Translations under genes and position numbers: made by a program | Notes under the pieces: model-generated | Database searches by the model: none | Seen by the model: only the letters and a program-made list of their open reading frames with translations | What the model was told of the DNA's origin: nothing | Shown: one piece after another, positions 28,894 to 52,315 of the stretch | Layout of the letters: each line of letters opens with the position of its first letter | How positions within the stretch are numbered: the stretch's first letter is position 1 | From: Planctomycetota bacterium | Lineage (GTDB): Bacteria > Planctomycetota > Phycisphaerae > Phycisphaerales > UBA1924 | Direction of reading: 5' to 3' | Length of the DNA: 64,000 bases | NCBI GenBank assembly: GCA_018242605.1 | Contig: JAFEBP010000014.1 | Coordinates: 1 to 64,000 of the forward strand

Positions 28894-31800
28894 TCAGCAG
28901 CCCTGTTCCCAGTGGAGGAAGAAGAAGTCGACATCGGAACCGTCGATGCCGCCATCCTCGTTGACGTCGGCGCCGGGCAGGCCGCGTTCCCAGTCGAAGA
29001 AGAAGGCGTCGACATCGGTGCCGTCGATGCCGCCGTCGTTGTTGTAGTCGCCGGTGGGGTCGACGGAGATAGTGGCGATGGCGCTGGGGAAGCAGCCGCA
29101 GGAATCGCAGACCAGGCAGTCGTAATCGCCGCCGCCGTTACAGTCCACGCCCTGGACGAAGAGGGTGTTGGAGTTGACGTTGTAGTAGATGTTGTTCTGG
29201 CCTTCGGTGAGGGGGATGAACTCGCCCTGGGCGTTGCGTTTGCGCCACTGGAAGGAGAGCGATCCGCTGCCGGTGGCCTGGACGGTCATCTGGAAGAACG
29301 CGCCGGAGTTGAGTGCGCCGCCGACGGGTTGCTCGGTGATGGAGACGCCGGAAGAGCCGAAGAAGATGGAGCCGTTCTGCGAGTTGCCCGCGCTGGGGCC
29401 GTGGTTGGCGGTGATGTTGCCCACGGGCATGGTGATGTTGCAGGCGTAGATGGCGATGCGACCGCCGCCGCCGGGGCCCCAGGTGCCGCTGCCGCCGGTG
29501 GCGCCGTTGGCCTGCACCAAGCCGGAGCCGGCGAGCTGGCCGGCGCGGATGAAGAGGCTTCCGCCTGCGCCTGCTCCGGCGGAGGAGGGGGGCTGGGCGC
29601 CGTTGGCGGCGAGCGTGCCGCCGACGGTGAGGACCTGGGTGACGTTGAGCTGGATGGCGCCGCCGCCGCGGCCGCCGGCGTTGCCGACGTAGTTGCCGCC
29701 GCCGCTGCCGAGATCGAGGGGCTGGGTCGCGGAGCCGTAGGGGAGGCCGCCGCGGAAGGGGTTGGCGTCGCCGCCGCGGCCGCCGTAGCCGCCGCCGGCT
29801 GCGCCGATGCCTCCGTTGGTGCTCGCCTGGCCTGCGCCCGGGCCGGTGTCTGAGGGGAAGCCGCGTCCGTTGGCGTTGATGGTGGAGCCGGTGGGGATGG
29901 TGGCATTGCCGGCGACGTTGATGGTGACCGGGGCGCCGAAGGGCGAGTTGATGGTGCTGTTTCCGGCGAGGGTGATGTTGCCCTCGATGGTGTTGATCCC
30001 TGCCAGTTCGAGGCGAGAGGCGCCCAACACAGAGATGTCACCGTGGACGGTCTGCGAGACGGAACATTCAGCGTTCGCGGAGTTCTGGACGGTGAGCGAT
30101 GCGCAAGAGAGATCGGTGGTGATGGGGGTTGGGGCGCCCAGGGTGGTGGTGTTGTTGTCGAGGATGATGGTGGGGTAGGAGGCCGCGGCGAGCTTTGTGA
30201 GGACAGTGCCCGCCCCGCCACGCGTGGGCGGGCTGTTGGAACTGAAGCCGCCGGTGGCGGCGATGGTGCCGGTGAACGAAGAGGTGTTGAAATACGCGGC
30301 GATGCGGCCGCCGCCGCCGGCGCCCCAGGTGTTCCCGCCGCCGTTGGAGCCGTGTGCGGTGATGGAGCCTGAGCCGGCGAGCGTGTTGGTGTTGATCCAG
30401 ATGGATCCGCCCGAGCCGGAACCGGCGGAACTGAAGCCCACCGCTCCGTTGGCGGCGATCGTGCCGGTGACGGTGAGGGTTCCGGAGACGTCCAGCCGCA
30501 GCGAGCCGCCACCTGCTCCACCGGGGTTGCCGATCCAGTTGCCGCCGCCGCTGCCCAGGTCGGTGGGCTGGGTGATTGAGCCGTAGGCGGTGCCGCCGGA
30601 GAACGGGCCCGAAGAGCAGCCGTTGCCGCCGTACGCCGCTCCTGCGCCACCGAGGCTGCCGTTGTTGCTGGCGATGCCGCGGCCGGGGCCGGTATCGCCG
30701 GGGAAGCCCAGGCCGCTCAAGTTCATGATGGAGCCTGCGCCGATGGTGCAGTTGCCGCCGATGATGAGGCGGAGCGGGGAGGCGGGTGTGTGTGCCAGCG
30801 TGCTGGCGCTGTTGGCCAGGGTGAGATTTCCGCCGATGGTGTTGGCGCCGTTGTACTCAACGCGTGCGCCGCCCGTGATGTCGACATTTCCCGCGACGGT
30901 CTGGGGCACGGAGTAGACGACGTTTGCCGAGGCCGCGATGAGGACGGAGGCGGGGTTGATGTTCACGCCGATCGGGGTGATGGCGCCCAGGGTGCCGCCG
31001 GCGTTCTCGATTCGGAGCGCCGGGTTGGCGTCGGCGGCGCGCTTTGTGAGGATCGTTCCCGCTCCTGCGCGGGGCGGGGAGCTGCTGCCGCCGAATCCGC
31101 CGGTGGCGTCGAGGGCGCCCGAGTAGGTTGAGGAGTTGTAATAGATCGCGATGCGGCCGCCGCCGCCGCCGCCCCAGGAGTTGCCGCCGCCGTTGCCGCC
31201 GCCGGCGGAGATCGCGCCGGCGCCGGCGAAGTTGCCGGTGTTGATCCAGAGCGAGCCGCCCGAGCCGCTGCCGGAGGAACCGGCCGCCTGCGCGCCGTTG
31301 GCGGTGATAGTGCCGTTGACGGTGAGGGTTCCGGAGACGTCCAGCCGCAGAGCGCCGCCGCCCCTACCGGCGGGGTTGCCGACGTAGTTTCCGCCGCCGC
31401 TGCCCAGGTCGGTGGGCTGGGTGATGGAGCCGTACGCGACGCCGCCGGCGAAGTTTGAAGAGGAGCAACCGTTGCCGCCGTACGCCCCGCCGGTGCCGCC
31501 GATGACACCGTTGGTGCTGGGGGCGCCGCGGCCGGGTCCGGTGTCGCCGGCGAAGCCCAGGCCGGTGAAGTTGAACAGCGATCCGGTTCCCACGGTGCAA
31601 TCGCCGCTGATGATGAGCCGCAGGGCGGAGCCCGCGGCGTGCGCCAGGGTGGTTCCGCCGCCGCTGAGCGAGAGGTTTCCGCCGACGGAGTTGACGCCGG
31701 TCAACTCGGCGCGGGATGTGCCGGAGATGTCGACATTGCCAGCGATGGTTTGGGGCACGGAGCAGACGACGTTTGCGGCGGTGGCGATGGTCATGGAAGC

Positions 31801-32778
31801 GGCGTTGAGGTTCACGCCGATGGGAGTGCTCGCGCCCGTCGTTGCGCCGGCGTTTTCGACGCGGAGCGTGGGGTTGGAGTCCGCCGCGAGCTTGGTGAGG
31901 ATGGTTCCCGCGCCCGCACGGATCGGGGCGCTGCTGGCGCTGAATCCGCCGGTGGCGGAGAAAGAGCCGGCGAAGCTTGAACTTGCGTAATACACGGCGA
32001 TGCGTCCGCCGCCGCCGGCGCCCCAGGAGTTGCCGCCGCCGTTGGCTCCGTTGGAAGACAAGGAGCCGGCTCCGGTGAGTGTGCCCGCCGTGATCCAGAT
32101 GGAACCGCCCGAACCGCTGCCCGCCGAGCCCGCGCCCTGCGCGCCGTCGGCGAGGATTGAGCCGCCGGCGGTCAGCGTGCCCGCGACGTCGAGGCGGACG
32201 CATCCGCCGCCCGCGCCGGCGGGGTTGCCGACGTAGTTGCCGCCGCCGCTGCCGAGGTTGGCGGGCTGGGCGATGGAGCCGTACGCGGTGCCGCCGGCGA
32301 AGTTGGACGATGAGCAGCCGTTGCCGCCGTACGCGCCGCCGGTGCCACCGATGGAGCCGTTGGTGCTGGCGATGCCGCGGCCGGGGCCGGTGTCGCTGCC
32401 GCCGCCGCGGCCGGAGACATCGATGCGGCTGGCGACGCCGCCGCTGCTGCTTTGGATGGAGCAGTCGCCGGTGATGATGAGGTGCATGCCCTCAACGACA
32501 TCGCCGGGGCCGTAGGTGAAACTCTGGTTGGCGGAGTGCGTGAGCACGGCGGGGTTGGAGCCGCTGCGTTCGAGCGCGAGGGAGGCGATGGTCTGGCGGC
32601 CGTTCACCGTGAGGGTGGTTCCCCGGACGGTGATCTGCGCGGTGGTCAGGGGCACGCCGGCCACGGTGGTATCGGTGGGGCCGATGGTGGTGGGGGCTGT
32701 AATCAGGACGGGTTGTGCCGACGCGAACGAAGCCGCGGCCGCGACGAGTGCCCACGCCGCCGTGTGTAAGGAACGCAT
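28894..32778 (-). CDS. Giant Gly-rich repeat protein with Ig-like and dockerin-like ends
   Basis: 1294 residues. The ATG at 32778, after GGGAGG, opens a signal peptide (MRSLHTAAWALVAAAASFASAQ). The body is four ~283-residue tandem repeats; each contains SDTGPGRG..S.NG..GG.GGAYGG.G, YGS..QP..LGSGGGNYVGN and a Gly/Ser-rich block ending GGGGRIA(V/I)Y. The same segments recur at ~850-bp spacing in the DNA. A beta-helix or autotransporter-type surface architecture is likely. Then comes an Ig-like segment (ITEQPVGGALN...FQMTVQATGSGSLSFQWRKR) and two dockerin-like repeats (NNDGGIDGTDVDAFFFDW, NEDGGIDGSDVDFFFLHW) ending WEQGC. It converges on the GmhB-like gene with a 7-bp gap. Confidence 0.85.
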   Translation of the reverse strand: MRSLHTAAWALVAAAASFASAQPVLITAPTTIGPTDTTVAGVPLTTAQITVRGTTLTVNGRQTIASLALERSGSNPAVLTHSANQSFTYGPGDVVEGMHLIITGDCSIQSSSGGVASRIDVSGRGGGSDTGPGRGIASTNGSIGGTGGAYGGNGCSSSNFAGGTAYGSIAQPANLGSGGGNYVGNPAGAGGGCVRLDVAGTLTAGGSILADGAQGAGSAGSGSGGSIWITAGTLTGAGSLSSNGANGGGNSWGAGGGGRIAVYYASSSFAGSFSATGGFSASSAPIRAGAGTILTKLAADSNPTLRVENAGATTGASTPIGVNLNAASMTIATAANVVCSVPQTIAGNVDISGTSRAELTGVNSVGGNLSLSGGGTTLAHAAGSALRLIISGDCTVGTGSLFNFTGLGFAGDTGPGRGAPSTNGVIGGTGGAYGGNGCSSSNFAGGVAYGSITQPTDLGSGGGNYVGNPAGRGGGALRLDVSGTLTVNGTITANGAQAAGSSGSGSGGSLWINTGNFAGAGAISAGGGNGGGNSWGGGGGGRIAIYYNSSTYSGALDATGGFGGSSSPPRAGAGTILTKRAADANPALRIENAGGTLGAITPIGVNINPASVLIAASANVVYSVPQTVAGNVDITGGARVEYNGANTIGGNLTLANSASTLAHTPASPLRLIIGGNCTIGAGSIMNLSGLGFPGDTGPGRGIASNNGSLGGAGAAYGGNGCSSGPFSGGTAYGSITQPTDLGSGGGNWIGNPGGAGGGSLRLDVSGTLTVTGTIAANGAVGFSSAGSGSGGSIWINTNTLAGSGSITAHGSNGGGNTWGAGGGGRIAAYFNTSSFTGTIAATGGFSSNSPPTRGGAGTVLTKLAAASYPTIILDNNTTTLGAPTPITTDLSCASLTVQNSANAECSVSQTVHGDISVLGASRLELAGINTIEGNITLAGNSTINSPFGAPVTINVAGNATIPTGSTINANGRGFPSDTGPGAGQASTNGGIGAAGGGYGGRGGDANPFRGGLPYGSATQPLDLGSGGGNYVGNAGGRGGGAIQLNVTQVLTVGGTLAANGAQPPSSAGAGAGGSLFIRAGQLAGSGLVQANGATGGSGTWGPGGGGRIAIYACNITMPVGNITANHGPSAGNSQNGSIFFGSSGVSITEQPVGGALNSGAFFQMTVQATGSGSLSFQWRKRNAQGEFIPLTEGQNNIYYNVNSNTLFVQGVDCNGGGDYDCLVCDSCGCFPSAIATISVDPTGDYNNDGGIDGTDVDAFFFDWERGLPGADVNEDGGIDGSDVDFFFLHWEQGC

Positions 32779-33082
32779 GAGAGCCTCCCGAAAAAAAAAG
32801 AAAGCCGCTGAGATGCGGGGCGGCTGTATCGATGAGCATACCAAAAACGCCGTGGCGTAGCAATCAAAAACGAGTGCATTCACAGGGCGGGAGGCGCTCC
32901 GCGGAGATGCGCCCATAATCCTCGCGTTGTCAGCGCTGCGCACTCTTCGTGCCGGGCAGCGGCGAGTCGGGCGGGGCGCCGCGGAGGACGCGGAAAGCGC
33001 GGATCACTGAGCGAGATGAAGTGACACAGGGCTCGGAGGCGGCAGCCCAGGAAAGCACCAAACTTGTGTTACCCTATCAGAA

Positions 33083-33123
33083 AACATACGAAATTGCCGT
33101 CATGGCGATAATGTTCGTATGTT
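33083..33123. promoter_or_regulatory. Palindromic element with 10-bp arms
   Basis: AACATACGAA (33083-33092) is the exact reverse complement of TTCGTATGTT (33114-33123). The 21-bp spacer itself has GCC...GGC. It sits in a gene-free, relatively AT-rich stretch and could be an operator for divergent promoters or a transcript-end hairpin. Confidence 0.45.
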
Positions 33124-33261
33124 GAACGGTTATTTCAAGGCACAGGCGGCTCTCCCGGTACCTCCGCCACAGCCCTCGCACCCACAATTTTGGGAATTTT
33201 CGGAATAATCGTCAAAAAGAGTTGGCACGGAAAATTCGGTGTGGCATGTTGAAGGTGCTCT

Positions 33262-33403
33262 GACCCGGATAGTCGGTCTATCGGGTCTGGGTGGGTGACG
33301 CAGAAAACCGGGAGCCGTGGTGGGATCTGCCACGGAGCAAGGCGCGTGACACGCGTCCCCGTGGTAACTGCGCACCTGAGGAATCCGCCTTCAGGGAGAC
33401 AGC
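33262..33403 (+). promoter_or_regulatory. Structured 5' leader with Shine-Dalgarno hairpin
   Basis: Four consecutive stems can be drawn. They are GACCC(G)GATAG with CTATCGGGTC (33262-33287), CCGTGG with CCACGG (33315-33335), CGCGT-GAC-ACGCG (33343-33355), and CCTGAGG with CCTTCAGG (33375-33395). The last one overlaps the AGGGAG Shine-Dalgarno (33393-33398) 5 bp before the ATG at 33404, so folding would limit translation. I could not match it to a named riboswitch consensus. Confidence 0.5.
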
Positions 33404-34633
33404 ATGAACCTTCTTCACTATGTCGAGAGCACGGATTCACGCCTGGGCGGCGTGCCGCGATTTGTGCTTGACGCGAGCCGCGTGATGGCGGCCGAGGGTC
33501 ACCCCTCGACGATCCTGACGCTTGACAGCACCGAAACTCCGGCCGAGTGGTTGGGGCAGCACGACGGATCTCTTCCCGCCGTGCAGCGCCTGGACCGTCC
33601 GGCCCTGCTGGGCAAGCTGTTCGGGCCCGCGGAGATGCGCAACATCCGGCGTGAGCTCAAGAAGGCCGATGTGCTGCACCTGCACTGCGTGTGGAGCCCG
33701 ACGAACCTGCAGATCGCGGCGGCGGCGCGGCAGATGGGCGTTCCGTATGTCGTTTCTCTCCACGGCATGCTGGACGACTGGTGCATGGCGCAGCGGAGCC
33801 TGAAGAAGAAGGCGTACATGAGCCTGGGCGGGCGCGTGTTCCTCGAGAAGGCCGCGCGGGTTCACTGCACGGCGACGGCGGAACTGAGCCAGAGCAAGAA
33901 GTGGTTCCCGCACGGGGCGGAAGCGATCATCCCGTACCTGATGGACCTGGAGCCGTACCGCAACCTGCCGGGGCGCGAGCTCGCGGCCAAGCGGTTTGAC
34001 TTCCTGGGCGAGAACAAGGGGGAGCCCACGGTGCTCTTCCTCTCGCGGCTGCACTACAAGAAGGGCCCGGAGTTCCTGCTGCAGGCGGCGTCGATGCTCA
34101 AGTCGCAGCGGATCCGCGGTCAGGTGGCCTTCGCGGGCACGGGCGATCCGGCGTACGTCGAGAGCCTGCGGCAGATGTCGCAGAAGCTGGGGATCGCGGA
34201 GAACGTGCACTTCCTGGGCCAGGTGATCGGCGCCGAGAAGCTCAGCCTGTACCAGAACGCGGACCTGTTCGTGCTGCCCACCAGCCAGGAGAACTTCGGC
34301 CTGGTGCTGATCGAGGCGATGGCGTGCGGCACTCCGCTGATCACGACCAAGGGCGTGGACATCTGGCAGGATGTACAGGCCAGCGGCGCGGCGGAGATCG
34401 TCGACCAGGCCCCGGCGCAGCTCGCGGGCGCGATCGCGAAGCTGCTCAGCGACGAGCGGCTCCGCAAGACGATGGGCGCCAAGGCGCGTCCGTGGGTGTT
34501 CGACACCTACGGGGAGTCGGCGCTGATCGGCAAGTACGAGGATTTCTACACCCAGTGCGCGAATCAGGCCCCCGGTGCATCGGCGGGCGGGGATGAGATG
34601 GCGTCGGTGGGGCAGGCCGCGGCGCTGGTGTGA
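33404..34633 (+). CDS. Group 1 (GT4-type) glycosyltransferase
   Basis: 409 residues, GT-B fold. The N-terminal domain has LGGVPRFVLDASRVMAAEGH (acceptor side), DVLHLHCVWSP and VVSLHGML. The C-terminal nucleotide-sugar domain has LFLSRLHYKKGPEFLLQA, GTGDPAYVESL and the EX7E block PTSQENFGLVLIEAMACGTPLI. This indicates a retaining glycosyltransferase that acts on a surface polysaccharide or lipid-linked glycan; the donor is unknown. A long structured leader precedes it, and a strong intrinsic terminator follows. Confidence 0.9.
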   Translation: MNLLHYVESTDSRLGGVPRFVLDASRVMAAEGHPSTILTLDSTETPAEWLGQHDGSLPAVQRLDRPALLGKLFGPAEMRNIRRELKKADVLHLHCVWSPTNLQIAAAARQMGVPYVVSLHGMLDDWCMAQRSLKKKAYMSLGGRVFLEKAARVHCTATAELSQSKKWFPHGAEAIIPYLMDLEPYRNLPGRELAAKRFDFLGENKGEPTVLFLSRLHYKKGPEFLLQAASMLKSQRIRGQVAFAGTGDPAYVESLRQMSQKLGIAENVHFLGQVIGAEKLSLYQNADLFVLPTSQENFGLVLIEAMACGTPLITTKGVDIWQDVQASGAAEIVDQAPAQLAGAIAKLLSDERLRKTMGAKARPWVFDTYGESALIGKYEDFYTQCANQAPGASAGGDEMASVGQAAALV

Positions 34634-52101: not shown

Positions 52102-52315
52102 CTCTCCCGAGGTCGTGCGGTCCTACGCTTGGCCAGCGTCCCCCCGATCGACGGCCGGGCCCGATGCACGGGCTGCACCGTGAACCTGGTCAGGGCTTGA
52201 CCGCAGCAGCCATAAGCGGCGGCGGCCCGGTGCCGTCGGTGTCCTGGCCGTCGATCGCGGGGATGCGTCTTTTGGGGCCGCGAGGCGCGGATCAACTGCG
52301 TAGAGGAGTCGCGTG

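Follow-up and report, generated by a model that had tools for sequence, protein, structure and literature searches.

What controls a glycosyltransferase gene that is preceded by a folded RNA in a planctomycete: the RNA, or the promoter in front of it? The window analyzed here, the whole stretch of 64,000 nucleotides, corresponds to contig 5 of the draft genome G000 (assembly of 4.98 Mb, 86.6% complete). It carries on its plus strand a gene for a GT4 glycosyltransferase of 409 amino acids (33404-34633; Pfam Glycos_transf_1), whose leader a first-pass annotation had read as responsive to a ligand or to temperature. The closest named relative that we found is Phycisphaerales bacterium UBA2402, with a glycosyltransferase identity of 83-84%. 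Among NCBIfam models, the exopolysaccharide glycosyltransferases HpsP, XYAG1, and EpsE come nearest to the protein, all below cut-off, and the protein itself has no sorting tail of the kind described below.

The surroundings of the gene hold further features. A perfect 10-bp inverted repeat, AACATACGAA...TTCGTATGTT, lies between divergent genes at 33083-33123 and could be an operator or a hairpin. The minus strand encodes at 28894-32784 a very long, repetitive Gly/Ala/Ser-rich protein with a dockerin-like end (DGSDVDFFFLHWEQGC) and no Pfam family, and positions 52153-52252 contain a bacterial small SRP RNA (RF00169, 57.5 bits).

The promoter and the predicted transcription start

A DNA similarity search with the leader returned no copy among 100 relatives, and weak matches at its 5' end pointed to a shared promoter. 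This promoter consists of a -35-like element, TTGGCA (33222-33227), and, 17 bp after it, a -10-like element, CATGTT (33245-33250). TTGGCA-N17-CATGTT is present upstream of the same-genus orthologues, and the -35-like element is common to the glycosyltransferase orthologues L003, L004, and L005 and to other loci. A weight matrix made from 11 promoters of a small RNA (see below), each taken from a different genus other than that of the window, ranked 33213-33256, a match that encloses TTGGCA, first among the approximately 128,000 positions of the window, with a score of 20.7 versus 10.4 for the next. The matrix also placed sites upstream of L003, L004, L005, and L007, ending 148, 109, 114, and 145 nt, respectively, from the start codon; before orthologue L006, the matrix found no equivalent site.

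In other genera, the conserved small RNA begins 7 nt downstream of the -10-like hexamer. The same spacing puts the predicted start of the glycosyltransferase mRNA at 33257, just before the first stem. According to the first-pass annotation, an mRNA starting downstream of the stems would have spoken against a regulatory leader; the predicted start lies upstream of every stem. The computation supports both the sharing of the promoter and this predicted position, which we infer to be the real start site. We consider the promoter the stronger and most informative result of this analysis, in that TTGGCA-N17-CATNTT ties the gene to a surface-protein program and to a new small RNA.

Genes and a tandem small RNA behind the same promoter

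Allowing at most one mismatch, the pattern TTGGCA-N15-GGCATNTT matched 14 times in G000, versus 0 matches for the reversed-pattern control. Promoter sites are found on contigs C3, C5, C7, C11, C12, C26, C27, C28, C30, C31, and C32; across 29 bases, no difference separates the paired sites C5/C26, nor the pair C27/C32. High scores belong to sites in front of the glycosyltransferase gene, the small-RNA array, and the genes for a 214-amino-acid protein without assigned function, for several proteins bearing LDPSGIEFVTVG behind a signal peptide, and for signal-peptide proteins with ends such as VPTPGG...RRRRR, VPAPAT...RRRR, and similar. Signal-peptide proteins with VPxPG...RRRR ends are encoded at a minimum of five loci in G000 and also in related genomes; among 398 background genes, 4 (~1%) encode a tail of this type. 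NCBIfam scores at the tails are below the curated cut-offs, the best being those of MYXO-CTERM, PEP-CTERM, and exosortase-dependent families, and G000 encodes two exosortases well above the Pfam cut-off. Because the promoter is linked to signal peptides with C-terminal sorting tails, and because the genome holds exosortases, we read this set as an exosortase-type surface regulon. The first-pass annotation had suggested that leaders of this kind control surface-polysaccharide genes; control of such genes is plausible, but the evidence favors the promoter, rather than the leader, as the element in common.

Separately, the leader of a conserved secreted-protein gene (L181, L187, L189, and L192, from four species) contains a nearly invariant hairpin, GTGGGTCTGGAACGAGTGTTCGTTCT. 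This hairpin is a second candidate leader RNA, and a better conserved one.

In the small RNA, GUCUUGUCUCUCUCCUCCU leads into a hairpin, after which many genera have a T-run; the RNA occurs in tandem copies behind the same promoter, one to five per array. Its 5' end is a conserved, CU-rich stretch of 19 nt with an anti-Shine-Dalgarno core. The loci in G000 are L212 (C7:64-246, minus strand) and C32:12-308. In the 16 sequences used for its covariance model, 8 of 9 pairs show compensatory changes. At an E value of 0.01, the model recognizes the RNA in 95 of the 163 genomes that represent the family, and in almost none outside it. No Rfam 15 family matches the small RNA, which is a new, previously uncatalogued family.

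Fold and conservation of the leader

From the predicted start, the leader extends over 147 nt (33257-33403). Its predicted fold begins with a 5'-end hairpin, H1 (33257-33292; arms 33257-33260/33289-33292, 33262-33267/33282-33287, and 33269-33272/33278-33281), followed by a three-way junction (33293-33377) that is closed by P1 (33293-33303/33368-33377) and encloses P2 (33315-33323/33327-33335) and P3 (33341-33347/33351-33357). Computed on the full leader plus the start of the coding sequence, predicted pair probabilities are ~0.9 for H1, 0.99 for lower P1, 0.92 to 1.0 for P2, and 0.8 to 1.0 for P3. Hence, of the four stems in ~135 nt described in the first-pass annotation, strong stems do stand directly 5' of the gene (33262-33377), but they are laid out as one 5' hairpin and a three-way junction, not as four stems in series. 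Positions 33262-33403 fold to -61.8 kcal/mol; the z score is -1.77 (of 200 dinucleotide-shuffled sequences, 14 were at least as stable), and that of the whole leader (33256-33403) is -2.3. Since the genome is GC-rich, such mildly unusual stability is by itself weak evidence for structure. A folded RNA in front of the glycosyltransferase gene is nevertheless probably real. An intrinsic terminator, as expected for attenuation, was searched for in 33000-33450 and not found.

An indication of a maintained fold comes from UBA2402. Its leader is only 49% identical to that of the window (70 of 142 aligned positions), yet its pairing ensemble has helices where H1, P1, P2, and P3 lie, with a mean probability of 0.79. 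In a test of this single species pair, framed after both folds were known, the mean helix agreement was reached by 0 of 600 shuffles of the UBA2402 leader and 0 of 800 random window segments, while random mutants of the window leader attained it in 0, 0, and 2 of 300 cases at 50, 60, and 70% identity and in 10 of 300 at 80%. This suggests that the structure was kept while the sequence changed, in this one relative. With the architecture retained in the nearest homologue, the refutation named in the first-pass annotation, no compensatory base changes in homologous leaders, is not borne out. Run unfiltered on 19.7 kb, a single-sequence covariance model of the window leader gave its best match at the predicted start of the UBA2402 leader (14.7 bits, E value of 0.15), with a spurious match within coding sequence scoring almost equally; it did not find the leaders of the three other orthologues, nor any further convincing copy over 40 genomes. 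On a plain MAFFT alignment, which misplaces the arms of H1 and P1, column-shuffled RNAalifold detected no signal for the window/UBA2402 pair (z score of -0.5). The value of -3.8 that it returned for four leaders we distrust, at an alignment identity of 9%.

The three-way junction was not found in the leaders of G001, G002, and G015. Orthologous leaders also start with a hairpin, of unrelated sequence, whose strength against shuffles corresponds to P values of 0.05 in the window, 0.07 in UBA2402, 0.06 in G001, 0.35 in G002, and 0.005 in G015. Together, these results describe a fast-evolving structured 5' untranslated region (UTR) that is probably neither a riboswitch nor a thermometer.

How much of this fold matters? 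It could be that the leader is no more than a GC-rich 5' UTR free of constraint, that the fold common to UBA2402 reflects chance or inherited similarity, and that only the promoter counts. The z scores of merely -1.8 to -2.3 in the window and -0.8 in UBA2402 fit this idea, as do a looser shape test that 5 to 6% of shuffles pass and the lack of a common architecture, other than the 5' hairpin, in the remaining orthologues. We nonetheless doubt it, although it is the alternative that we take most seriously, given that neither shuffles nor window segments reproduced the helix agreement of UBA2402 and that neutral mutants at 50 to 70% identity did so in at most 2 of 300 cases. A different possibility is that the small RNA, which is CU-rich and co-regulated, targets the leader by pairing with the purine-rich start region. 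UCUCUCUCCUCCU in the small RNA is complementary to Shine-Dalgarno sequences, and the predicted duplex energy is -17.0 kcal/mol for the window gene and -22.6 kcal/mol for G002. However, 21% of 43 window genes pair equally well or better (19, 84, 2, and 44% for the other orthologues), which makes such targeting improbable; with predicted start-region pairing at background level, we do not claim the small RNA as a regulator of the glycosyltransferase.

A sensory role of the leader, for a ligand or for temperature, is unlikely. Like the riboswitches and thermometers of Rfam 15, it is a structured leader before a single gene, but it differs from them in that no covariance model matched it at gathering score, and a relaxed threshold yielded two weak, meaningless matches; the first-pass annotation was right that it fits no riboswitch consensus. 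One might still imagine a new, narrow riboswitch-like class whose junction binds a metabolite, e.g., a nucleotide sugar or a second messenger, and thereby exposes or hides the start region. Here, the joining strand GTGGT between P3 and P1 (33361-33365) is suggestive, being unchanged in UBA2402 although the stems differ. The conservation expected of an aptamer core fails across homologous leaders, however: no junction or loop is retained beyond this one relative, the leaders of two other genus members and of G015 are unmatched, no other gene in 40 genomes convincingly bears the fold, and the Shine-Dalgarno sequence is not predicted to be sequestered in a two-state manner, so that we regard this idea as quite improbable. 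Still less probable is an RNA thermometer, in which the last stem would hide the Shine-Dalgarno sequence (AGGGAGA, 33393-33399, 4 nt 5' of the ATG at 33404) and melt on warming. The fourth stem of the first-pass annotation (33375-33395), supposed to pair with this sequence, can indeed be drawn as 6 bp, CCTGAG at 33375-33380 with TTCAGG at 33390-33395, taking in part of the Shine-Dalgarno sequence; its pair probabilities are 0.06 to 0.16, since bases of its 5' arm also belong to P1, the stronger helix. AGGGAGA is predicted to be ~41% unpaired at 37°C, and its accessibility in the energy model stays between 0.41 and 0.48 from 15 to 55°C, with similarly little change predicted for UBA2402; nor does any Rfam thermometer family match the leader. 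Translational coupling to a candidate upstream open reading frame of 38 codons, which runs from a GTG at 33291 to a TGA at 33407 and ends in an ATGA overlap with the glycosyltransferase ATG, is scarcely credible: the frame is open and the overlap is there, but no orthologous leader contains an equivalent peptide and the GTG lacks a clear Shine-Dalgarno sequence.

A proposed mode of control and its relation to known systems

The reading that we favor, and hold to be rather probable, is that 33222-33403 comprises a promoter and a 147-nt structured leader of an exopolysaccharide-type GT4 gene, with transcription as the main level of control and the leader as a passive element. Control would most likely be exerted through the bipartite promoter (T/C)TGGCA-N17-CAYNTT, recognized by a sigma factor or a sigma-activator pair, which would co-induce the glycosyltransferase with the small RNA and with surface proteins that undergo exosortase-type sorting. 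The leader, with its hairpin at the extreme 5' end and the three-way junction after it, would act passively or semipassively; judging only from its position, it may protect the mRNA end, and it would set a fixed level of translation rather than sense a metabolite or temperature. The wider proposition, that this Phycisphaerales family has a promoter class of its own, read by a sigma factor or an activator, for the joint expression of exosortase-sorted surface proteins, a new tandem small RNA, and an exopolysaccharide glycosyltransferase whose mRNA has a structured leader, seems to us evenly balanced. If it is true, a surface and matrix program with an RNA arm, the anti-Shine-Dalgarno small RNA, would exist outside the Proteobacteria.

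The ompA mRNA of E. coli is an example of a structured 5' UTR with a protective 5'-terminal hairpin. The leader described here resembles such UTRs in opening with a stable hairpin that is followed by more structure, and differs in that its three-way junction is specific to the glycosyltransferase gene and one relative. It illustrates how the shape of a 5' UTR may persist between sister species though half of the sequence differs. For the small RNA, a parallel exists in Rhodobacter, where the CcsR RNAs bear C/U-rich stretches. CcsR1-4 are tandem small RNAs under an RpoHI/RpoHII promoter (PMC10253847). Both systems place tandem, C/U-rich small RNAs behind one dedicated promoter, an analogy of working only: sequence and phylum differ, and the Phycisphaerales small RNA has no Rfam match.

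The closest counterpart of the proposed regulon is the PEP-CTERM/EpsH (exosortase) regulon of Proteobacteria, in which a common cis site precedes single genes for sorted proteins and is linked with exopolysaccharide genes (PMC1569441). That site is a sigma-54 element, -24 (GG)/-12 (GC), plus a PrsR box, and pepA is RpoN dependent (PMC1569441, PMC9850573). We considered a sigma-54/PrsR promoter of this type (GG-N10-GC) for the window and rejected it: after the GGs at 33224-33225 and 33243-33244, the GC positions read TC and GT, and as the -12 GC is absent, the element is not a sigma-54 one. In both regulons, a common cis site stands before single genes whose products are secreted and sorted by their C termini, and both have the exopolysaccharide link; they differ in that the site here, TTGGCA-N17-CATNTT, lacks a GC at the spacing required, belongs to a Phycisphaerales family, and is predicted to drive a small RNA as well. 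In the survey by Haft and colleagues in 2006, the PEP-CTERM regulatory site was seen only in Proteobacteria, and further motifs were said to await discovery (PMC1569441). With TTGGCA-N17-CATNTT, a specific candidate for such control is now at hand in planctomycetes. Its start site is predicted, the genes behind it are listed, and the small RNA can serve to report its activity, so that the question of control is directly testable.
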